A stretch of DNA of 64,000 nucleotides from Leptotrichia wadei (GCF_007990545.2 NZ_AP019829.2:372001-436000); one strand, 5' to 3'. Positions 46,807 to 58,074 are shown, counted from the stretch's first letter. A program made the numbers and translations. Notes: a model not told the origin generated them from the letters alone.

Positions 46807-47256
46807 ATGAATTATTATGAATTATTAGGTGTGTCTGAAAATGCTGATATTTCAGAAATAAAGAAAAAATATAGGAAATTGGCGATGAAATATCATCCAG
46901 ACAGGAATTCGGGGGATGAAAATGCTACTAAAAAATTTCGGGAGGTAACAGAGGCTTATGAGGTTCTTGGGGATGAAAAGAAAAGGGAAGAGTATGACTG
47001 TAAAAGAAAAAATGTTCAGAGTCAAAGAAGAAATAAGAATAAAAAGGAAAATGTCAAGGATGAATTTTCTCAAAACGATTTTACTTTCGGAAGGGATTTT
47101 TTTAAAAGTGCTAAGGAAATGAAAGGAATGTTTGAAAATAGTTTTAGGATGGATAAAATGGGAGAGAAAAGGGCAAGGTCGGAAAAAGAGAATATTAAGA
47201 GTAGGTTTGATCAGTTTTTTGATGTAAAGAAAAAAAATAATGATAATTTTAGGTAA
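46807..47256 (+). CDS. Short DnaJ-domain protein
   Basis: 149 residues. The J domain is at the N-terminus ([20 protein letters not shown], the HPD motif in [30 protein letters not shown]). The rest is a basic, low-complexity tail without the Gly/Phe region or zinc fingers of DnaJ. J domains stimulate Hsp70 ATPases; a large Hsp70/actin-fold protein lies in the same cassette (54137), which is a plausible partner. First gene of the cassette, behind a good promoter. Confidence 0.88.
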
Positions 47257-47324: not shown

Positions 47325-47427
47325 CGAACCTGTTTAAAATCAAATTGTTGAAAATTATATAAATTTATGTTTTAAGTAAAATAGTCATAGTTTTTGAGTT
47401 CAGTTTTAAGGCAGTTTTACTATAAAA
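47325..47427 (+). repeat. Dispersed repeat family 2, copy d
   Basis: The longest copy, from GAACCTGTTTAAAATCAAATT to CAGTTTTACTATAAA. It sits between the DnaJ and FHA genes, inside the cassette. Confidence 0.75.
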
Positions 47428-47456
47428 AAGATAAATTGAGGGAAGGAAAAAAGGAA

Positions 47457-48275
47457 ATGTTATGGGGAATTAGAAGATTGTTGTCAAATTTTAGAAGTAT
47501 TTTTAGACAGCCGTTTGGACGAGGCAGTATTTATCGGCTGGAAAGACTTAAAAGTGTTGTACGAATGAAGGAAAATGGAGAAAATAGAAGTGAAAAAAAT
47601 GGTTTAGGAGTGGATAAGGGAATTAGAAAATATGAAAAACGGAAATTAAATGCGAGAAGCCAAAAAGCTTATAAATTTTTTAATGTGAAAAATATTTTAA
47701 TAATTCTGATTTTGATATTTACATTTATTTTTGTACATTTTTCGGGATATTCTACAAAAAGTCTTTATTTTTCGATTTTTATTTATATTGGAGTTACACT
47801 TTATTTGCTTATTTTGGAAAGATTTTTTGAAAAGGTGGAAGTTCAAGAGGAAATTAAAAATATAAAAAATGATAGAGAAAGGGAACATAATGTTTTTTTA
47901 GAAAGAGTAAAGGAAATAGAGGATTTAGAGAAAAATCAGATTGAGCATATATTTTTGAAGGATTCAGAAGATTATGACATGAAAATATGGAAAGTTGGAA
48001 GGGCAACTTCACTTTTAATTGGAAAACAATCGCCTAGAAATCGGGTGGATATTGATGTAAGTGAGGGGATTTATTCTAATTTAGTTAGTAGGGCTCATGG
48101 TATTTTAAATCGTGTTAATGGAATTTGGTACTATGAGGATTTAGGCTCACAAAATGGGAGTGGAATTGAAAAAAGTCTGGATAAGCGGAAAATGAAACTA
48201 AAAAAAAATATACCTGTAAAAGTAGAATCAGGTGATATTATTTATTTGGCAACTACAAAAATATTATTAAAATAA
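47457..48275 (+). CDS. Membrane-anchored FHA-domain protein
   Basis: 272 residues. A basic cytosolic N-terminus, two membrane helices (about 79-97 and 104-124), a coiled-coil region and a C-terminal FHA domain (about 178-272). It has the phosphothreonine-binding signatures VGRATSLLIGK, LVSRAHGIL and GSQNGSGIEKS. FHA domains bind phosphothreonine made by Ser/Thr kinases such as the one encoded at 53074. An open frame extends upstream to 47394 within a repeat; GGAAGG before the ATG at 47457 decides the start. Confidence 0.85.
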   Translation: MLWGIRRLLSNFRSIFRQPFGRGSIYRLERLKSVVRMKENGENRSEKNGLGVDKGIRKYEKRKLNARSQKAYKFFNVKNILIILILIFTFIFVHFSGYSTKSLYFSIFIYIGVTLYLLILERFFEKVEVQEEIKNIKNDREREHNVFLERVKEIEDLEKNQIEHIFLKDSEDYDMKIWKVGRATSLLIGKQSPRNRVDIDVSEGIYSNLVSRAHGILNRVNGIWYYEDLGSQNGSGIEKSLDKRKMKLKKNIPVKVESGDIIYLATTKILLK

Positions 48276-48446
48276 AAAAGGGAAATTACAAGAGTAAAAT
48301 TTGTAAAAATTAATAAATAATATTTGTGAGAGCAAAGAATTAAAATTTTTGTTAGATAAAAAAAGTAAAATTTATGTTTTTTAGTGAAGCTTAGTATTAC
48401 AGAATTTTATAAATAGATAAAATAAAAAATGGAGGAATATTTTAAA

Positions 48447-49106
48447 ATGAAATTAGATAGATGTAAAAATGGGCATATATACGATGTTTCAAGATACAGT
48501 TCGTGTCCCTACTGTAAATCGGAAGGATTGGAAACGGAAGTTCAAGATGATAAAATTAATTTAGTTGAGCAAATGGAAGATGAAGATAGAACTACTGCCT
48601 ACTGGTCAAAGGATAGCACTGTAGATCCTGTTGTTGGGTGGCTTACGTGTATTGAAGGACATGACAAGGGGAAGGATTACAGAATTGTGAGTGAGCGGAA
48701 CTTCATTGGGCGTGGAGAAAATATGGATATTCAAATTTTAGGAGATACTATGATTTCTAGAAAAAACCATTGTTCAATAAGTTATAATCCAAAACAGCGA
48801 AAGTTTATGCTAACTCCTGGAGATTCCAATGGATTGATTTATTTAAATGGAGAGGCTGTTTATAATACAGTGGAATTGAGAGCTTATTCGGTTGTGGAAA
48901 TGGGAGAAAGTAAATTTGTGTTTGTAAATCTTTGTGGGGATTATTTTGATTGGGAGAAAGAAAAGGCTAGAGATGAGAATGTGAAAAGAAAATATGAAAA
49001 AAATTTAGATAATAAAAAAATAGATGAAAATATAAATTTTGTGAATAGAAATAGTAGAAATGGAGATTTAGAAGTAAAAATTGAAGATTATGAGGAAAAT
49101 TTATAA
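48447..49106 (+). CDS. Zinc-ribbon plus FHA-domain protein
   Basis: 219 residues, soluble. The N-terminus has a four-ligand metal site (CKNGHIYDVSRYSSCPYC), a typical zinc ribbon; an FHA domain follows (about 70-165) with FIGRGENMDIQILGDTMISRKNHCSI and SNGLIYLNGEAV. The C-terminal 50 residues are charged. GGAGG is 11 bases before the ATG at 48447. Zinc-ribbon-FHA proteins with this plan occur beside kinase/PP2C genes; here it probably reads phosphorylation by the kinase at 53074. Confidence 0.87.
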   Translation: MKLDRCKNGHIYDVSRYSSCPYCKSEGLETEVQDDKINLVEQMEDEDRTTAYWSKDSTVDPVVGWLTCIEGHDKGKDYRIVSERNFIGRGENMDIQILGDTMISRKNHCSISYNPKQRKFMLTPGDSNGLIYLNGEAVYNTVELRAYSVVEMGESKFVFVNLCGDYFDWEKEKARDENVKRKYEKNLDNKKIDENINFVNRNSRNGDLEVKIEDYEENL

Positions 49107-49274: not shown

Positions 49275-51677
49275 ATGAGGAAGGATGAGGCAAAATTTAT
49301 TACGGAATTTTTAAGCGAGGCTGGAACGAAGACTGAAAATAGTGATTATTTTGGATATGTTTTGCTGGATAATTATGCAATTTGGGCTGTGGCAGATGGA
49401 TTTGATGAGGAAGAAGGAGCAAAAGTTGCGGCAAGGATTGCTGTAGAATCTGTAATTGAATATTTTATGCTATGTCCACGATTTAATTATGATGTTATTA
49501 AGGAAATGATGGATTATGCCAATTTGAAAGTTAAAGAAAAACAGGAGGAAGCCCAAAAATATTCTCTTATGCACACTTCTCTTTTAATCGTTATAAGCAA
49601 TTATAATTCAATTTTATATGGAAATGTTGGGAATACAAGATTTTACCATATTAGAGGTGGATATATTGTTTCCCAAAGTAAAGATGATACGATAGCACAG
49701 CTTTTGGTGGATGAAGAAGCGTTAAATGTATCGGATATAAGATTCCATAGACAAAGGAATGATTTACTGCAGGCAATTGGAGATTTTGGGAAAATTAATC
49801 CCAATATTATAAGAAGCCCTGTGGAGCTTATGGAAAAAGATATTTTTTGCTTGACAACTGTGGGATTTTGGGAAAATATTGATGAACACGATATGGAAAA
49901 TGATTTGTCCAGATTTGAGGATAAAAAGCAATGGCTAAATTCATTGGAAAAAAGGATACTTGCTTCGCTTAGGGACAATATTGAAAATTATACGATTGCA
50001 CAGGTGGAAGTTCAGGCGGTGGCGAGTCCAGAGCCGATGGAAAAGGATAGAAGTAAAATTATAAAAAAAATATTATTGATAATAATGATTGTTGTTGTGA
50101 TTATTTTATTTATTGTAATTTGGAATGTAAAAAGAAGAAATGGAATTTTACAGGCGGCAACGCAATATGAAAAGCTAGCAGATGAGGAAATTTTGAAAAA
50201 GAACTTTAATAATTCAATTGATGATTTGAAATTGGAAATTGGAGAATATGAGAAATTAAAACCGAAAAGCAGGGGGATTATTGGGTTTTTTACAAATGCC
50301 GAGAAAAAAAGGAATGATGCAGATAAAAAAATTGATGAGATAAATAAAAAAATTGGAGAAATCGAAAAAATTAAAGAGGCATTTACAGATATTGATGAAG
50401 GAAATGAACTATTTAATAATGGAAATTATGATGAGGCGAATGTGAAATATCAGCAGGCTAAATATAATCTGAACGATAATACTTATAAACGTGATGAATT
50501 GAATACAGAAGAGATTTTGACAACGTTGGATTCACGTATAAATTCGGCTGTGAAGTTGAAGGAGGCGAAGGCTTTGGAAATGGCTGGAGATAATGCGGTT
50601 AATGAAGGAAGTTTTAATTTGGCGAAAGTTAGTTATAAAAATGCGATGGATATATATCTAGCAAATGGTAAAGCGGATTATGTTTCACAAATCGAGAAAA
50701 AGATAGAGGAAATATCGGATAAGGAAAAAACTGCATATAATGGGGCAATGCTTGCAGAAAATAAGGGAGATTCATTGGCACAGAGCAATATTAATTCTTC
50801 TAGGGAGGCATATTATCAGGCACGACAAATGTACCAGGTGCTTGGGGATACTGTAAAAGTGGGAGAGGTTGACAATAAAATACAGGAGCTTAATTCTCAG
50901 CAAAATGCTGATTTACAAACTGCTAATAATCTTGTGCAAGAAGGACTTTCTCAAATAACAGCTAACAATCCAGCTCAAGCAATAAGCATTTTAACACAGG
51001 CTAAAAATATTTATCAAAAAATGAAGGATACAAATAATGTGAATATTGTTGGAAAGTATATAAATCAGGCACAGGAATTTATCAAATTTGAAAGCCAAAA
51101 TGTTGAAAAATTGAAGGCACAGAAATTGGAATATTCAGAAAAATTAAAATCACAAGAAACAGAATATTCAGAAAAGCTAAAACAGCAGGAAATTCAGCTG
51201 CAACAGCAACTGCAAGCAAAAGAAATGGAAATAAAGGTACAACAGGAGCAAATGGAGCAGGAAAGGCAAAAACGGGAAGAAATATCAAGAAAAATAGAAA
51301 ATGCCTTAAATCTGGAAATGCAAGCGGATCAACTGGCGATAGATGAAAAATTTGAGGAAAGTATAGCAAAGTATGAAGAAACTAAGAAGATTTTGGAAGA
51401 GGTAAATACAGATGGAAATTTTGGCAATCAAGTGGCTAAAATTGAAGGTTTAAATAAGAAAATTGAGAAAATTGAAGGGTATTTGCTGAAGAAAAATGGA
51501 GAAGAAGATCTTAAAAATAAAAGATGGAAGGATGCTGTTGAAAAACTTACACAGGCAAAGGAAAAATTGGAAAAAAGCGGCACAAAACAAAATGAAATAG
51601 CCGAAATTGAGAAAAAGCTGAAAAAGGCTGAGAAAAAAGCAAATAAAAAATGGTGGCAATTTTGGAAAATTTTTTAA
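49275..51677 (+). CDS. PP2C-like membrane protein with TPR/coiled-coil extracytoplasmic part, probably inactive
   Basis: 800 residues. An N-terminal PP2C fold (about 1-245) has TENSDYFGYV and WAVADGFDEEEGA, but the late metal-binding aspartates are lost: LTTVGFWENI replaces the usual SDGLW and IENYTIAQV replaces DNxT. A membrane helix (about 257-282: KKILLIIMIVVVIILFIVIW) is followed by TPR-like repeats (ELFNNGNYDEANVKYQQAK, QGLSQITANNPAQAISILTQAK type) and a long Gln/Glu/Lys coiled coil (about 610-680), ending WWQFWKIF. The topology suggests signalling across the membrane. Function inferred; a pseudophosphatase is likely. Confidence 0.75.
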   Translation: MRKDEAKFITEFLSEAGTKTENSDYFGYVLLDNYAIWAVADGFDEEEGAKVAARIAVESVIEYFMLCPRFNYDVIKEMMDYANLKVKEKQEEAQKYSLMHTSLLIVISNYNSILYGNVGNTRFYHIRGGYIVSQSKDDTIAQLLVDEEALNVSDIRFHRQRNDLLQAIGDFGKINPNIIRSPVELMEKDIFCLTTVGFWENIDEHDMENDLSRFEDKKQWLNSLEKRILASLRDNIENYTIAQVEVQAVASPEPMEKDRSKIIKKILLIIMIVVVIILFIVIWNVKRRNGILQAATQYEKLADEEILKKNFNNSIDDLKLEIGEYEKLKPKSRGIIGFFTNAEKKRNDADKKIDEINKKIGEIEKIKEAFTDIDEGNELFNNGNYDEANVKYQQAKYNLNDNTYKRDELNTEEILTTLDSRINSAVKLKEAKALEMAGDNAVNEGSFNLAKVSYKNAMDIYLANGKADYVSQIEKKIEEISDKEKTAYNGAMLAENKGDSLAQSNINSSREAYYQARQMYQVLGDTVKVGEVDNKIQELNSQQNADLQTANNLVQEGLSQITANNPAQAISILTQAKNIYQKMKDTNNVNIVGKYINQAQEFIKFESQNVEKLKAQKLEYSEKLKSQETEYSEKLKQQEIQLQQQLQAKEMEIKVQQEQMEQERQKREEISRKIENALNLEMQADQLAIDEKFEESIAKYEETKKILEEVNTDGNFGNQVAKIEGLNKKIEKIEGYLLKKNGEEDLKNKRWKDAVEKLTQAKEKLEKSGTKQNEIAEIEKKLKKAEKKANKKWWQFWKIF

Positions 51678-51692
51678 GATAGGAGGGAAAAA

Positions 51693-53108
51693 ATGATAAA
51701 AAATATAAAATTAAATACTTTCTTTTTTAAGGAATATGCACAAATTGCCGAAAAAAATACATATTCGGCATATATTCCAAATGGGAACAGAGGGATTTGG
51801 TGTATTGCTGATTTTGAGGAAAAAATATATGTTCAAGAAGATATAGAGATAAATCAAAAAATAGAGAATAATGACATTAGAAGTAAAAAAATTAAAAAGA
51901 ATATTAAAAGAAAAAATTTGGCAAAAATTGGAGTTTATAAAATTATTGAAAAGTATTTGGAAAATAGTAGTTTTTCAATTGAAAATATGAAAAAAATGAT
52001 TCAATCTTCCAAAGATAAAGTAATTTTTGAAAAAAGTAAATTACTTAAAATTGAAAAAGATAATGAAAAAAATTTTGATTTAAAAAATTTTTATTCGCAA
52101 ATTGTTGTTATTATTGAAAAAAATAATATGATTGTTGGAAATATGGGGAAAACTGAATTTGTTTTGTATAGGGAAAATAGAATTGTGGAAAAGATAAGTG
52201 GAGAGCAATTCAAAAAAATAAGACTGAAAAAACATGATTATTTGCTGGCTGGGAGTCCTGAATTTTGGAAAGTTGTTAATGAGAGTGAAATTGAGGAAGT
52301 GTATGTTGACAAGAAAAGTAAAGAAAATATTGAGCAAAGTTTAAGCGAACAGATAAAACTTGCTGAGAAAAAATTGGGTAAAGTGATACCATTTTTGTCG
52401 ATTTTTGTTGAAGATATTGAAGTGGAAAAGAATTATGAATTATTAGAAAGTGAAGTTAGTAAGAAAAATCAAAAGCGGGAAATGACTGTAAAATATATAT
52501 TTTTATCGGCAATGTTTGCATTTATGCTTGTTTCTGTGGGAAAAAATATTCAAAAAGGTAATTTTGAAAACAGGAAAAACGAAAATGTCAAAAATGTAAT
52601 GGCTAAGAAGATTAGTGAAAAATCAAATTTATTGGAAAATAATTTATATGTAAAAGCAGAAATAGAAAATAATAAAATTGAACAGGGAAATTTGGCAAAT
52701 GTTAAAGTTGAAGTTAAGAAAACTGCTGAAAATGAAAATGCAGTTGAAAATCAAAATGTGGAAACAGGGAATAAAGAAATAGAAAAGAATCATGCAAAAA
52801 ATTTGGAAATTACTCAAAATATTACAAAAAGCAAGGAGAAAGGTGATAAAAAATTAAATAATTCAAGAATAAAAAAGAAAGTTTCTAAAAATAAAAAATA
52901 TAATAGAAAAAATCTGAATGCAGATAATAGAAATTTTAAGAAAAATTATAAGGTAAAAAGTAATGGAATTTCACAACTTGAAAAGGAAATTGAGCAAAAT
53001 TGGGAAGTTCTTGGGCGTGATAGAAATGGGAATAATTTTGTGAAAAATAGAGAATTTAAAAGGGAAAATAAGAATGGATTTTTTGTTAAAGGGAACAATA
53101 TTGAATAG
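51693..53108 (+). CDS. Second, more degenerate PP2C-like membrane protein
   Basis: 471 residues. The N-terminal half follows the PP2C order seen in the preceding gene: RGIWCIADFEEK in place of VADGFDEE, MIVGNMGKTEFVLYRENRIV (normally GDSRxY), and LLAGSPEFWKVV in place of SDGxW. All metal ligands appear lost. One membrane helix (about 267-284), then about 190 residues rich in Lys, Asn and Glu. It begins 15 bases after the first PP2C-like gene, and the kinase gene overlaps its last 35 bases. Confidence 0.65.
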   Translation: MIKNIKLNTFFFKEYAQIAEKNTYSAYIPNGNRGIWCIADFEEKIYVQEDIEINQKIENNDIRSKKIKKNIKRKNLAKIGVYKIIEKYLENSSFSIENMKKMIQSSKDKVIFEKSKLLKIEKDNEKNFDLKNFYSQIVVIIEKNNMIVGNMGKTEFVLYRENRIVEKISGEQFKKIRLKKHDYLLAGSPEFWKVVNESEIEEVYVDKKSKENIEQSLSEQIKLAEKKLGKVIPFLSIFVEDIEVEKNYELLESEVSKKNQKREMTVKYIFLSAMFAFMLVSVGKNIQKGNFENRKNENVKNVMAKKISEKSNLLENNLYVKAEIENNKIEQGNLANVKVEVKKTAENENAVENQNVETGNKEIEKNHAKNLEITQNITKSKEKGDKKLNNSRIKKKVSKNKKYNRKNLNADNRNFKKNYKVKSNGISQLEKEIEQNWEVLGRDRNGNNFVKNREFKRENKNGFFVKGNNIE

Positions 53109-53973
53109 AAAGTATAAAATTTTAAATTATGTAGCTAAAAGTGATTTTTCCAATATTTATATGTGTGAAGATAGACAAGGGGAAAAAGTAATTATTAAGG
53201 AATGTTATCCTTCAGAAATTGTTATGAGAAATAGTAAAGAGGTTTTTACTGAAAAGTACAAGAAAGATTTTGAAAATTTGAAAGAATGTTTTTGGAAAGA
53301 AAAATGTATTTTGGAGAAATTTTTGAAAAAATCTAAAAGAAGAAAACGGAAATTTGTGGATGATGTTATTAAATTTGTGGATTTTTTTAGTGAAAATGGA
53401 ACAAATTATATTGTTACTGAATATTTTTGTGGAGTTACCTTGAAAAAATATATTTTGGAAAATCGGATAAAAAATGGAAAATTGAGGATAAATCATATTT
53501 TGGAAATATTTTTTAAAATTGCCGAAGTAGTTTGTAAAATTCATAAAAAGGGAATTATTCATTGTGATTTGAAGCCTTCAAATATTTTGATTGATATTAG
53601 GGGAAATATCAGAATTATTGATTTTGGAGCGAGCTTAAAAAAGAAGGAAAAGGTTGAGTTTGTTAAGGTTTCAGATGGGTATTCGCCGATTGAGATTTGT
53701 TCAGAAAAAGTTGAGATTGATGAAAGAACCGATGTTTATTCACTTGGGGCACTTTTATATTTTATGCTTTGTGGAGTGAAAGTGGATGGGGCGATTAAGA
53801 GGTTCTATAAGGCTGAACTGGAGTTTGGCAGGGAAGTTATTTTGGGATTTGAGAAGATTGAGATATTTAAGGAAGTGGAAGAAGTTATAAAAAAGGGGCT
53901 GGAGTTTGACAGGCAGAAAAGGTTTGGAAGTGTTAGGGAAATGATTGAAAAATTGAGAAAAATTTTTGCTTAA
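53074..53973 (+). CDS. Ser/Thr protein kinase (Hanks type) with atypical glycine loop
   Basis: 299 residues, all kinase domain. The ATP lysine is in KVIIKECYP (about 42), the catalytic loop is HCDLKPSN (Asp about 165, Asn about 170; Cys replaces the Arg of HRD), DFG is at about 183, and the activation/P+1 region is VSDGYSPIEIC. The glycine-rich loop is VAKSDFSNIYM, lacking all usual glycines, which may reduce ATP binding or alter regulation. No membrane segment. Starts inside the previous gene. Likely phosphorylates the proteins read by the two FHA domains. Confidence 0.85.
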   Translation: MDFLLKGTILNRKYKILNYVAKSDFSNIYMCEDRQGEKVIIKECYPSEIVMRNSKEVFTEKYKKDFENLKECFWKEKCILEKFLKKSKRRKRKFVDDVIKFVDFFSENGTNYIVTEYFCGVTLKKYILENRIKNGKLRINHILEIFFKIAEVVCKIHKKGIIHCDLKPSNILIDIRGNIRIIDFGASLKKKEKVEFVKVSDGYSPIEICSEKVEIDERTDVYSLGALLYFMLCGVKVDGAIKRFYKAELEFGREVILGFEKIEIFKEVEEVIKKGLEFDRQKRFGSVREMIEKLRKIFA

Positions 53974-54136
53974 AATAAAAGCTTTTTAATAGATTTGATT
54001 TTATAACAAGCTAGAGAAATTTCAATAAAATCTATGTTTATAGCTTTTTATTTGGATTTTAAATTAATAAATCAAAACTAAAACTTGAATTTAAAGAAAA
54101 TATTCATTATTAATGACAAAAGGGGACAAGGTAAAA

Positions 54137-56800
54137 ATGAGATTATTTTATGAAGAGGAATTGCGAAGAAAATCTTACTATGAGATGTATCAGATTGCAA
54201 TTGAGGAACATTTGGTAAATGTACATGTGGAAACGCCCACGAGAGAGGAGCTTATCTCACTTTTGATGAAATATAGGGGAGTCAAGGAAAATTACTGTAT
54301 TGACAAGTATAATAAAAACGGGCTTGTGAATGTTCAGGAACTTTTTGATAATAAACTTGGCGAGAGAATTCATCACGAGAATAAGATACGAGTGCCACAC
54401 AAGATTATTTTATACAAGGAGCTTGATTTGATGAGGGAAGACAATTATAAAATTGAAATTCCTGAAAATGTGAGCAGTGCAAATGTTTTTCTTATAAATG
54501 CAAATAATTACCTGTGTGGGATTTTCCAGCTGGAAAAGGATTTGAATAGCAGGAATAAGTATTTTCTAATTAGTAAAAAGGAATTTTTTAGAGTTGAAAC
54601 TTTAAGAAATAATAAGTTCTCTTTTTTATTTTTCAAGGAAAATGACTTAAAATTTATTCATAAGTTTTATAATTTAAAAGAAGATGAAACGACACCACTT
54701 TACCCATACCAGATGGATTATTACAAAGTTGAAATTGAAAATTTTGTTGTGAAAAATCTGGAAACTACGAATACGCCACTTTGTATTGATTTTGGGACAG
54801 TAAATACGGCTCTTGGGGCATATCTGGATAAAAATTATGTGAAGGATTTGCCTACTAATGATATTTTGAATGGAAATGTCGTGATAGATGCTATAAATTA
54901 TGTAAAATTTGACGATGGAGAGAGACGTTACCGTGAGATTTTTCCAACATTAGTTTATGTTGATGATTGCAGCGATGCTAATAATATTAAGTATTCATTT
55001 GGGTATGATGTGATAAGAAAGTTGGAGAGAAATGACTATATTGTCAATGGCTCGATTTTTTACAGCTTGAAAAGGTGGGTTCATGAGCATAATAAACTTG
55101 AGAAAATTAATGATGAGTTTGGAAATATTCTGTATGTGAAAAGAAAGGATATAATAAAGGCGTACTTAAAATATGTTGTAAATCGTGCTGAATACATGTT
55201 TAAATGCAAATTTAAAAAAATTCATGCTTCAAGTCCTGTAAAATTAAAGGAGCAGTTTTTGACGATGTTTCAGGAAATTTTCATGGTGGAAAATAAATTT
55301 AATAAAAATCAGAATTCTGAAATTTCTGAAAAAAATATAATTTCAAGTGAAAAAAATTATGAATATGAGATTATTCGTGAAAATGCGATGGATGAAGCGA
55401 TTGCAGTGTTGTATAATACAATTGAGATACAGATAAGGAAAGAGAGATATAAGGAGAATGAAGAATATAGTGCATTAATTATTGATTGTGGTGGCGGAAC
55501 GACGGATTTGGCGGCTTGCAAGTATGTGATTAGCAAGGACAAAATTTCATATTATCTAGATATAAGGACAAGCTTTGAAAACGGGGATGAGAATTTTGGT
55601 GGAAATGACTTGACTTACAGGATTATGCAGTTTTTGAAAATTGTGCTTGGGGCAAAATATTCTGAAAATAGGGTCGTTTCTATTAATGATTTGATAAAAT
55701 ATGATAACGATATAATTTACAAGGTAATTGATGACAGCGGTGTTGAGAAGATTTTTGAAAATATGAATTTGGAATATGAAAAGTATGAAAATGTAATTCC
55801 CACAAAATATTCGCAGTTTGAGAATAAAATGAGTGAAGAGTATCAGAAAATACGGAATAACTTTTATATGTTATGGGAAGCAGCTGAAAATCTTAAAAAG
55901 GAATTTTTTACATCCGATGGAAGACTGCGGACACGTTTTGATGTACCTAGAAATTATGAAAAACGGAATGATATTCATATAACGCAGTTAAAAAGCTGGA
56001 AAATTCATACTTATGAAAATGGAATATTTACCACAATAACAGATTATCCAAGACATATTTTTACGATAAAAGAAATTGAAAAAATCGTAAAAGCTGATAT
56101 TTACGGAATGCTCAGAAAATTTTTGAATACGTATTACAAGGAAGGGCTGCTTTTTGAGTATTCATTAATAAAATTAAGTGGGCAGTCAACGAAAATCAGT
56201 ACATTTCAGGAAGTACTAAAGGAATTTGTGCCGGGAAAGATGATTGAATACAAGGAACTGAGCCATCGTGATGATTACGAGCTGAAACTGAACTGTCTGG
56301 ATGGAGCTATAAAATATCTGGATTATAAGCGTTTTGGGCATATAGATGTGGAAATTGTGAATGAAGTTCCGCTTGTGCCGTATTCTGTGTGGGTGGAAAA
56401 ATACGATGGGGAAAAAGTGGAAATGATACAGACTTCACGAAAGGCTGATATTCTAATTGGACAGATTGATAAAAAGATTTCTGCTGAAGAACTAAAAATT
56501 TATGTTTATACTGCAGAAGGCGAATTGAAAAAAGAGATGATCTATAAAAATGAGGATAATTATGAAGAAATGGATGCACAGGAAATTTTGCCTGAATTTA
56601 CAAATATAATTTCTCAAAATGATACCGATACAATTCAAAACAACACAGTAAGATTTTTTATTTATACTGATTTAAACAACTGGGGATTTTTTGTCGTTCC
56701 AATTCAAAGGAAATCGGATCAGCTTTATCTTGGACGAAAGGAATATTCTCCTTATGAAGATAATTTAAGTGAAAATTCCTATTTTGACGGAAACCACTAA
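54137..56800 (+). CDS. Large Hsp70/actin-fold (ASKHA) ATPase
   Basis: 887 residues. About 210 N-terminal residues are not recognised. An ASKHA domain follows: phosphate 1 CIDFGTVNTALGAYL (about 216), phosphate 2 LIIDCGGGTTDLAACKY (about 448), and adenosine motif LIKLSGQSTKISTFQEVL (about 695). Gly and Asp residues for ATP are present, so it is probably active. The C-terminal 150 residues are not a normal Hsp70 substrate domain. It may be the partner of the DnaJ protein of the cassette. GGGG and AAGG precede the ATG at 54137; an ATG at 54113 overlaps them. Confidence 0.75.
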   Translation: MRLFYEEELRRKSYYEMYQIAIEEHLVNVHVETPTREELISLLMKYRGVKENYCIDKYNKNGLVNVQELFDNKLGERIHHENKIRVPHKIILYKELDLMREDNYKIEIPENVSSANVFLINANNYLCGIFQLEKDLNSRNKYFLISKKEFFRVETLRNNKFSFLFFKENDLKFIHKFYNLKEDETTPLYPYQMDYYKVEIENFVVKNLETTNTPLCIDFGTVNTALGAYLDKNYVKDLPTNDILNGNVVIDAINYVKFDDGERRYREIFPTLVYVDDCSDANNIKYSFGYDVIRKLERNDYIVNGSIFYSLKRWVHEHNKLEKINDEFGNILYVKRKDIIKAYLKYVVNRAEYMFKCKFKKIHASSPVKLKEQFLTMFQEIFMVENKFNKNQNSEISEKNIISSEKNYEYEIIRENAMDEAIAVLYNTIEIQIRKERYKENEEYSALIIDCGGGTTDLAACKYVISKDKISYYLDIRTSFENGDENFGGNDLTYRIMQFLKIVLGAKYSENRVVSINDLIKYDNDIIYKVIDDSGVEKIFENMNLEYEKYENVIPTKYSQFENKMSEEYQKIRNNFYMLWEAAENLKKEFFTSDGRLRTRFDVPRNYEKRNDIHITQLKSWKIHTYENGIFTTITDYPRHIFTIKEIEKIVKADIYGMLRKFLNTYYKEGLLFEYSLIKLSGQSTKISTFQEVLKEFVPGKMIEYKELSHRDDYELKLNCLDGAIKYLDYKRFGHIDVEIVNEVPLVPYSVWVEKYDGEKVEMIQTSRKADILIGQIDKKISAEELKIYVYTAEGELKKEMIYKNEDNYEEMDAQEILPEFTNIISQNDTDTIQNNTVRFFIYTDLNNWGFFVVPIQRKSDQLYLGRKEYSPYEDNLSENSYFDGNH

Positions 56801-56814
56801 AAAGGAAGAGAATA

Positions 56815-58074
56815 TTGAGAAAAAAAGATGAAATAATTTGGATAATGCCCGCAATTTTTATTTTTATCATTCTTTTTATGATAAAATTCTGTACTCCCAA
56901 AATTAATCAGAAATATGTTATTGAAAAAATAACACTTGAAAATCTTGAATTTTTTGTGGATATGAAAGGAACTGTTGTTGCAAATAATGTTACTAAAATT
57001 GGACTAGATGTGAATTTATCCGTTGATGATGTTTACTACAAGGCTGGAGATTTTGTAAAAAAGGGCGATGTAATAGTGAAATTTAGCGATTATCAGAAAA
57101 ATGGATTGAATGAAAAACGTACGTTATTAGTGATTAAAAATCGGGAATTACGAAATTTGGAAAAACAAAGGGAATTGGGATCTGATGTTAGTCAGAAAAT
57201 TCAGGAATTACGTGGAGAAATATCAGGATTGGAAATTGAAATTAAAGATGAAATGAGAAATACAAGATTGGTTCAGAGAAGTGTAAGAAGTCCATTTGAT
57301 GCTTACATTGTGAAAATTAATGCAGTGAAAGGTGGAATTACAAACAAAAATGAGCCTATTTTGATTCTTTCCAAAAGGGAAGATTTAAAAATAGTTAGTG
57401 AAAACGTGAAAAGTGAGAAAGTTAAAAATCTAAATATTGGAAATGTTGCCAAAATTAGTATTTTTAGGAGAGAAAATAAAAAAATTGGAGAAGAAAAAAT
57501 ACTTGAAGAATTAATTGAAATGAAAAATGATAAAAATAAGGAAATTTTGCAAGATAAGGATAAAATAAAAGAGAATTCAGATTTATTTTCTGAAAAAAAG
57601 GTTATTGAAGCAGAATTATTTAAGATTAATAAAATTGGGGATATGAATGTGTTTGAGTTTTTACCAACTTTATTTAAGGATCTGTTTTTAAACGAGCAAG
57701 TGGATATTCGTGTGATTTATAAGAAAAAAGAGAATATTCTGGCTGTTCCAAAAAAGGCTGTTATTTTTAAAAATCAGAAAAGCTATATTTATTTAATTGA
57801 TAAAAATAATTTGGTTAAAGAAAAGAAAGTGTTTATTGGGATGGATAATGGAGAGAAGATTGAAATTTTTGGAATAGATATTGGAGAAGGAATGGAAATT
57901 ATTGGGAATCCTGATGATAAAATTGGGAATAATGTGATTGTGGAACGAAGGAATATTAAGGATGAGGAAATTGAAAATAGGAAAAAATTGGAAAGGTTAG
58001 AGTGGGAAAATGAAAAGCTGGGGAATAGAATGGATGAGAATGAGAGAGAGATTATCAGACTAAAGAGAAAATAA
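56815..58074 (+). CDS. HlyD/RND-type membrane fusion (adaptor) protein, orphan
   Basis: 419 residues with an N-terminal membrane anchor (about 9-26), barrel-sandwich halves (GDFVKKGDVIVKFSD and VRSPFDAYIVKI with a coiled coil between them), a beta-barrel domain and a C-terminal LAVPKKAVIFKNQKSYIYLI segment typical of efflux adaptors. The tail ends with a coiled coil. No transporter, ATPase or outer-membrane factor is next to it. TTG start, with AAAGGAAGAG just upstream; no in-frame ATG is near. It begins 14 bases after the ASKHA gene, so it belongs to the cassette. Confidence 0.83.
   Translation: MRKKDEIIWIMPAIFIFIILFMIKFCTPKINQKYVIEKITLENLEFFVDMKGTVVANNVTKIGLDVNLSVDDVYYKAGDFVKKGDVIVKFSDYQKNGLNEKRTLLVIKNRELRNLEKQRELGSDVSQKIQELRGEISGLEIEIKDEMRNTRLVQRSVRSPFDAYIVKINAVKGGITNKNEPILILSKREDLKIVSENVKSEKVKNLNIGNVAKISIFRRENKKIGEEKILEELIEMKNDKNKEILQDKDKIKENSDLFSEKKVIEAELFKINKIGDMNVFEFLPTLFKDLFLNEQVDIRVIYKKKENILAVPKKAVIFKNQKSYIYLIDKNNLVKEKKVFIGMDNGEKIEIFGIDIGEGMEIIGNPDDKIGNNVIVERRNIKDEEIENRKKLERLEWENEKLGNRMDENEREIIRLKRK

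Follow-up and report, generated by a model that had tools for sequence, protein, structure and literature searches.

Why should a bacterium keep two neighbouring genes for phosphatase-like membrane proteins whose metal ligands are lost? This question is raised by two tandem open reading frames (ORFs), P1 and P2, at positions 49275-53108 of a 64,000-nucleotide stretch of the Leptotrichia wadei genome (NZ_AP019829.2:372001-436000, the window in what follows). A preliminary description had read both products as PP2C-like proteins with a single membrane helix and had proposed that they are pseudophosphatases used as phosphoprotein sensors or kinase regulators. The tandem ORFs were found as described, and our analysis suggests that P1 is probably an ancient membrane-anchored pseudophosphatase and a docking scaffold core to a type VI-like contractile injection system of Fusobacteriota and Bacillota. 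Among named organisms, the closest relatives of P1 are the proteins of Leptotrichia hongkongensis, at 91% identity, and of Leptotrichia sp. oral taxon 879.

Residues 19-236 of P1 matched the Stp1/IreP PP2C model NF033484 (E 2e-27), PF13672 of Pfam was matched as well (E 2e-9), and the best match of the P1 domain in a PDB sequence search was PppA of a type VI secretion system (T6SS) (E 6e-8), which is an intact PP2C. The AlphaFold model of the domain (mean pLDDT 91.8) retained the PP2C strand order and was matched by Foldseek to tPphA, Stp1, and PstP with TM-scores of 0.83-0.86 by target length (E 4e-18 at a TM-score of 0.83), so that structure prediction and superposition, proposed earlier as a check, gave a confident PP2C fold for P1. 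Among the structural matches was 2irm, a homologue of TAB1, an animal pseudo-PP2C that has the fold without catalysis and is a binding partner of a kinase; P1 differs from TAB1 in having a membrane helix and a link to an injection machine, TAB1 having neither. P2 gave no Pfam, NCBIfam, or PP2C match of its own, and a search of PHROGs likewise yielded nothing beyond weak matches; its PP2C fold is read solely from the alignment of its profile with that of P1 by hhalign (204 columns, 99.2%, E 8e-20). Because of these E-values and of the conservation over 70 homologues, the resemblance of P1 and P2 to PP2C is not a matter of chance. The strand order claimed for both proteins was thus recovered in the P1 model and in part in P2, in which about 50 residues (the flap region) are missing. 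The single membrane helix of each protein was also recovered by hydropathy (residues 266-284 in P1 and 264-282 in P2); it lies just after the domain in both, and for P1, 78 of 81 homologues have one such helix.

The P1 motifs quoted earlier (VADGFDEEE, LTTVGFWENI, and IENYT) are correct: ADG is kept (D41), SDG is changed to TVG, and DN is changed to EN. An additional loss concerns the third-metal Asp of GDSR, which is replaced with Asn (GNTR). One of the four acidic positions is therefore kept, one carries a conservative Asp-to-Glu change, and two are lost, while P2 has none of the four ligands, the DG included, as had been stated. PstP, Stp1, and tPphA thus share the fold with P1, but their GDSR and SDG ligands are missing in P1 and all of their ligands in P2. 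The loss extends over the family. Among 70 P1 homologues, mostly from Bacillota, the Asp of SDG occurs in none, that of GDSR in one (64 have Asn), that of DN in 15, and that of ADG in 46, Lys taking its place in most Lysinibacillus and Arg in Brevibacillus proteins. The Asp triad of ADG, SDG, and DN that marks an active PP2C is accordingly incomplete in P1 and absent from P2, and the aligned P1 homologues have no new invariant acidic residue at the lost positions. Alignment error as the source of this motif reading was considered and ruled out by the alignments, including that of the 70 homologues.

The surroundings of the lost ligands, assessed from aligned positions, are well preserved. In 40 aligned homologues, the pocket neighbours N22, D24, G119, R122, G197, and Y239 are invariant and N120, N238, and T240 nearly so. 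Position 196, where V196 stands in place of the SDG Asp, lies at the 88th entropy percentile, and T195, G197, W199, and E200 around it are nearly or fully invariant. We make no claim on the phosphate-binding Arg, because the motif-1 region did not align reliably with canonical PP2Cs. The ratio of nonsynonymous to synonymous substitution rates (dN/dS) of the P1 domain between sister species is 0.07, indicating purifying selection; together with a free position 196 amid invariant neighbours, this is as expected of a maintained pseudoenzyme. In a tree of P1, P2, and the second PP2C encoded at most P1 loci (the companion, described below), P1 and P2 group together (100/99), separate from the companion clade (99/93), with long branches flagged by the program, and the ligand loss would therefore be older than the split between the versions of the two phyla. 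Judged from these alignments, P1 is an old, maintained pseudophosphatase and not a product of decay. The proposed pseudophosphatase identity is thereby borne out by family-wide ligand loss, a retained fold, and purifying selection. P2, which evolves faster (dN/dS 0.26-0.34), is a more degraded paralogue of P1 confined to the Leptotrichia family.

What P1 is kept for is suggested by its neighbours. P1 homologues with E < 1e-40 were found in 19 of 60 related genomes; among the same 60, P2 was restricted to the genus and to some members of the family. A scan of 84,980 species genomes gave 60 P1 loci, mostly in Lysinibacillus, Brevibacillus, Paenibacillus, Clostridium, Lachnospiraceae, Selenomonadaceae, and Halanaerobiales; two weak Campylobacteraceae matches among them may be something else. 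In flanks examined up to 10 kb, the usual order is kinase, X716, X144, DnaJ, FHA1, FHA2, companion PP2C, P1, Y422, Y237, Hsp70-like protein, X259, and VgrG-like protein (X and Y names give a letter and the length of the protein in genome G041). The order of VgrG, X716, X144, FHA1, FHA2, PP2C, kinase, and Hsp70-like genes is conserved in most of the 60 loci, and DUF4280 PAAR-like proteins are encoded near the cluster in some. All 19 related genomes with a strong P1 also have X716 and DUF4280. Intact X716 is present in 28 of the 60 related genomes, nine of them without a strong P1, and a divergent P1-like protein was found at the same place in three of these nine (L124-L126, the loci examined). 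The co-occurrence of strong P1 with X716 has a hypergeometric probability of about 1e-8, uncorrected for kinship.

The cluster would place both P1 and P2 in the part of a VgrG/PAAR-like contractile injection system that serves membrane anchoring and signalling, a larger setting than had been described. VgrG-like proteins were recognized in locus L098 by Phage_GPD, at E 7e-7, and by Phage_base_V, at E 3e-5, and in L143 by DUF2345 (E 2e-6). DUF4280 was matched in L097 (E 9e-17), and effector-like proteins combine this domain with HINT and nuclease domains. As DUF4280 belongs to the PAAR-like domains that form the tip of a spike (PMC5014421, PMC5349215), both a VgrG/gp27-gp5-like hub and a PAAR-like tip, two marks of such a system, are encoded. 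In the genome of the window, a VgrG-family ORF matches the cluster profile at E 1e-136 and DUF4280 is matched at E 1e-15. X716 is highly conserved, the Lysinibacillus protein being 49-68% identical to those of other lineages, and is without sequence relatives. Pfam, NCBIfam, and PHROGs searches with X716, X259, Y422, and Y237 gave nothing beyond weak matches, and PDB profile searches with X716, Y237, and Y422 nothing useful, Y422 reaching E 0.005 over 52 columns with a tail tube connector. No Tss family (TssB/C, TssJLM, TssK, and ClpV) exceeded the Pfam or NCBIfam cut-off in the cluster proteins, to which this search was confined, whole genomes not being searched.

The companion lies directly upstream of P1 in most loci and has an N-terminal membrane helix. 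Its ADG Asp is present in 52 of 56 proteins and its SDG Asp in 43 of 56, and all 13 companions without the latter belong to Clostridium and Lachnospiraceae loci with no kinase in the flank examined; wherever a locus has both kinase and companion, the companion is intact. The phosphothreonine-contacting Ser of the forkhead-associated (FHA) domains behaves similarly: it is found in 4 of 16 FHA1 and 7 of 16 FHA2 proteins of kinase-less loci, as against 30 of 45 and 40 of 42, respectively, of loci with a kinase. These counts represent few independent events, in about two lineages. P1 is retained in all of the kinase-less Clostridium and Lachnospiraceae loci. Because P1 persists where the phosphorylation parts have decayed, a structural role is favoured over that of a sensor, and the phosphoprotein-sensor proposal is weakened. 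Regulation of a kinase is plausible for P1 and P2, the kinase encoded next door in an overlapping frame having intact catalytic residues. Kinase, FHA proteins, and intact PP2C occur in one cluster in Bacillaceae/Paenibacillaceae loci and in genomes G026, G027, and G034. In Leptotrichia, the companion is gone from the cluster and a profile search of the whole genome found no intact PP2C, whereas the kinase and the FHA residues are intact. Apart from this cluster, an intact PP2C is encoded at loci L103 and L104 (genomes G001 and G006) beside a protein of about 1,100 aa that contains a kinase and has many hydrophobic helices; this pair is a different kinase/phosphatase system.

These findings suggest how P1 might work. 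Its cytosolic pseudo-PP2C domain, which has probably given up metal-dependent hydrolysis, would offer a docking surface at the membrane to the FHA proteins, the companion PP2C, and/or the kinase, and the tetratricopeptide repeat (TPR)/coiled-coil tail, presumably on the other side, would tie the complex to the envelope or the machine. By hydropathy, the companion, P1, and P2 have one transmembrane helix each and FHA1 has two, so all are membrane proteins. Phosphorylation by the kinase, read by the FHA proteins, could govern how the machine is assembled or fired, in the manner of the T6SS threonine phosphorylation pathway of PpkA, PppA, and Fha1, in which kinase, PP2C, and FHA protein are likewise encoded with a contractile injection system (PMC3953482, PMC5995506) and in one case Fha binds phospho-TssL (PMC3953482). 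Compared with that pathway, the P1 cluster adds a second, dead PP2C with a membrane helix, and its kinase has no predicted membrane helix. In Leptotrichia, P2 might add a second subunit to this hub.

By analogy, P1 would hold the parts together as does the pseudokinase EssB/YukC in the type VIIb secretion system (T7SSb) (PMC3694306, PMC9600267). In EssB/YukC, too, the cytosolic domain is that of a dead signalling enzyme, the membrane is crossed by one helix, and a further domain lies outside; the protein is an integral part of a secretion machine with FHA domains. The dead enzyme of P1 is a PP2C and not a pseudokinase, however, and its machine is VgrG/PAAR-based; the likeness is one of design, and no homology is claimed. 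Binding of the YukB FHA domains by the pseudokinase domain of YukC was seen in E. coli (PMC9600267) and is hence probably independent of phosphorylation. A PAAR-like tip protein is common to the P1 cluster and the non-canonical T6SS represented by Francisella IglG (PMC5014421, PMC5349215). In their accessible text, these papers describe no FHA/PP2C/kinase/Hsp70 module for the Francisella-type system, unlike the P1 cluster, and raise the possibility of such machines in Gram-positive bacteria. A 'type VI' paper on honeybee Paenibacillus was rejected as a precedent, since it concerns Tc toxins, another thing. The literature searched, which left out most subscription journals and all preprints, gave no description of the P1 cluster or of a pseudo-PP2C in an injection system.

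Several points weigh against a scaffold in an injection machine. Membrane topology was judged by hydropathy alone. The likeness of X144 to the tube protein Hcp is weak (TssD E 0.017; its only PDB match, Hcp1, E 0.33), and X716 is read as sheath-like from a poor model (pLDDT 53), which had as its top match among 350,542 chains the VipA/VipB T6SS sheath at a non-significant E of 0.21. The machine parts of the window's genome are scattered over several loci: X716 and a 1,300-aa DUF4280 protein at C1:732-740 kb, X144 at C1:320 and 1058 kb, and VgrG with Y422 and Y237 at C1:1403-1410 kb. The window would therefore carry the genes for signalling and chaperones of a machine whose other parts are encoded elsewhere. 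Finally, with D41, the G42 backbone, and the DN Asp as Glu, window P1 may retain weak one-metal binding or slow activity.

A wider proposal, which we advance tentatively, is that the dead PP2C is an obligatory membrane component of an undescribed class of T6SS-like machines in Bacillota and Fusobacteriota, where it replaces the TssJLM anchor, the shell of kinase, FHA proteins, and active PP2C being optional and repeatedly lost. Less likely is the alternative, in line with the sensor role of the preliminary description, that P1 is a reader of phosphate or phosphopeptides whose emptied pocket still recognizes the phosphorylated targets of the kinase next door and signals their state to the other side of the membrane. 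The conserved pocket neighbours, the GDSR Asp-to-Asn change in 64 of 70 homologues, and a window kinase that looks active are consistent with it, but the metals that normally bind phosphate are lost, some of the invariant residues may merely hold the fold, and P1 is retained in Lachnospiraceae and Clostridium loci that have no kinase and decayed FHA Ser residues. It is very improbable that P1 works as a phosphatase through an unusual metal site made of D41, the G42 carbonyl, E237, and waters, with some ligands from elsewhere: although the window species keeps D41, D24, and an acidic residue at position 237, and some phosphatase may be needed in a genome with a kinase and no other PP2C by profile search, the SDG position is never Asp in the 70 homologues, most homologues from Lysinibacillus and Brevibacillus have Lys or Arg at position 41, and the lost positions have gained no invariant acidic residue. 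Least credible is that P1 and P2 are ordinary decaying duplicates without specific function, which would suit the rapid evolution and interrupted tail of P2 and the stops in second-cluster P1 copies of some genomes but is contradicted for P1 by its low dN/dS, its conservation across phyla, and its presence with the machine.

A docking P1 would represent a conserved bacterial pseudophosphatase family linked to an injection machine of Gram-positive bacteria and fusobacteria, oral and soil genera included. To our knowledge, T6SS is generally held to be absent from both groups. A docking P1 would also suggest a design common with T7SSb, in which a dead signalling enzyme is reused as a membrane hub. 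In the kinase-less Lachnospiraceae and Clostridium versions, a need for the dead domain in assembly could be separated from phosphorylation, and Leptotrichia raises the question of how phosphorylation by its kinase is reversed.

Features of P1, P2, and the neighbouring genes, in window coordinates
Feature	Position	Strand	Length or support
P1 ORF	49275-51677	+	800 aa
P1 pseudo-PP2C domain, aa 1-250	49275..50024	+	NF033484 E 2e-27; AF2 pLDDT 91.8; Foldseek to PP2C
P1 single transmembrane helix, about aa 264-284	50064..50126	+	hydropathy 3.39; model helix 257-283
P1 C-terminal TPR/coiled-coil-like region	50127..51674	+	weak TPR matches in Lysinibacillus homologue; dN/dS 0.05-0.08
P2 ORF	51693-53108	+	471 aa
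P2 truncated pseudo-PP2C domain, flap and all metal ligands gone	51693..52442	+	hhalign to P1; alignment
P2 transmembrane helix, aa 264-282	52482..52538	+	hydropathy
P2 Lys/Asn-rich low-complexity tail	52539..53108	+	stops in two sister species
DnaJ-like J-domain protein	46807..47256	+	conserved cluster position in Fusobacteriota and Bacillota
FHA1, two transmembrane helices and FHA domain, Arg/Ser/His/Asn-Gly residues intact	47394..48275	+	PF00498 E 7e-7
FHA2, soluble, phosphothreonine-contacting residues intact	48429..49106	+	PF16697/PF00498
Ser/Thr protein kinase; catalytic Lys, HCD, DFG present	53074..53973	+	PF00069 E 4e-29
Hsp70/actin-like protein, strongly conserved	54113..56800	+	weak DnaK/MreB matches; dN/dS 0.04
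HlyD/MFP-like membrane protein	56815..58074	+	TIGR01730 E 8e-19; Leptotrichia-family cluster version only

Some further observations concern individual genes. The P2 tail past the membrane helix is broken by stops or frame changes at L039 (G007) and L042 (G005), the domain remaining open. Second-cluster copies of P1 carry in-frame stops at L029, L030, and L031 (G005, G001, and G009), the G001 copy being split into 529 and 251 aa. In some genomes of the order, a second P1-like protein with a further eroded ADG is encoded beside VgrG/DUF4280 genes (L100:8532-10424, L109:5209-7116, and L122:3245-5134). A genome of the same genus that lacks P1 and DUF4280 has two short fragments of X716 (L194, G012:C1:1178572-1178751), which are the remnant of a lost machine. 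In the genome of the window, a second X259 copy is seemingly split into ORFs of 189 and 93 aa (L191:11864-12640, C1 about 321.9-322.6 kb), close to VgrG-like and DnaJ ORFs.

The reading frame of the kinase, which begins at 53074, overlaps the end of P2, and HCD replaces HRD (a non-RD kinase) in the main Leptotrichia clade and in genomes of family f4. The J-domain protein and the roughly 890-aa Hsp70-like protein accompany the injection cluster almost throughout and are perhaps a chaperone pair for its assembly.

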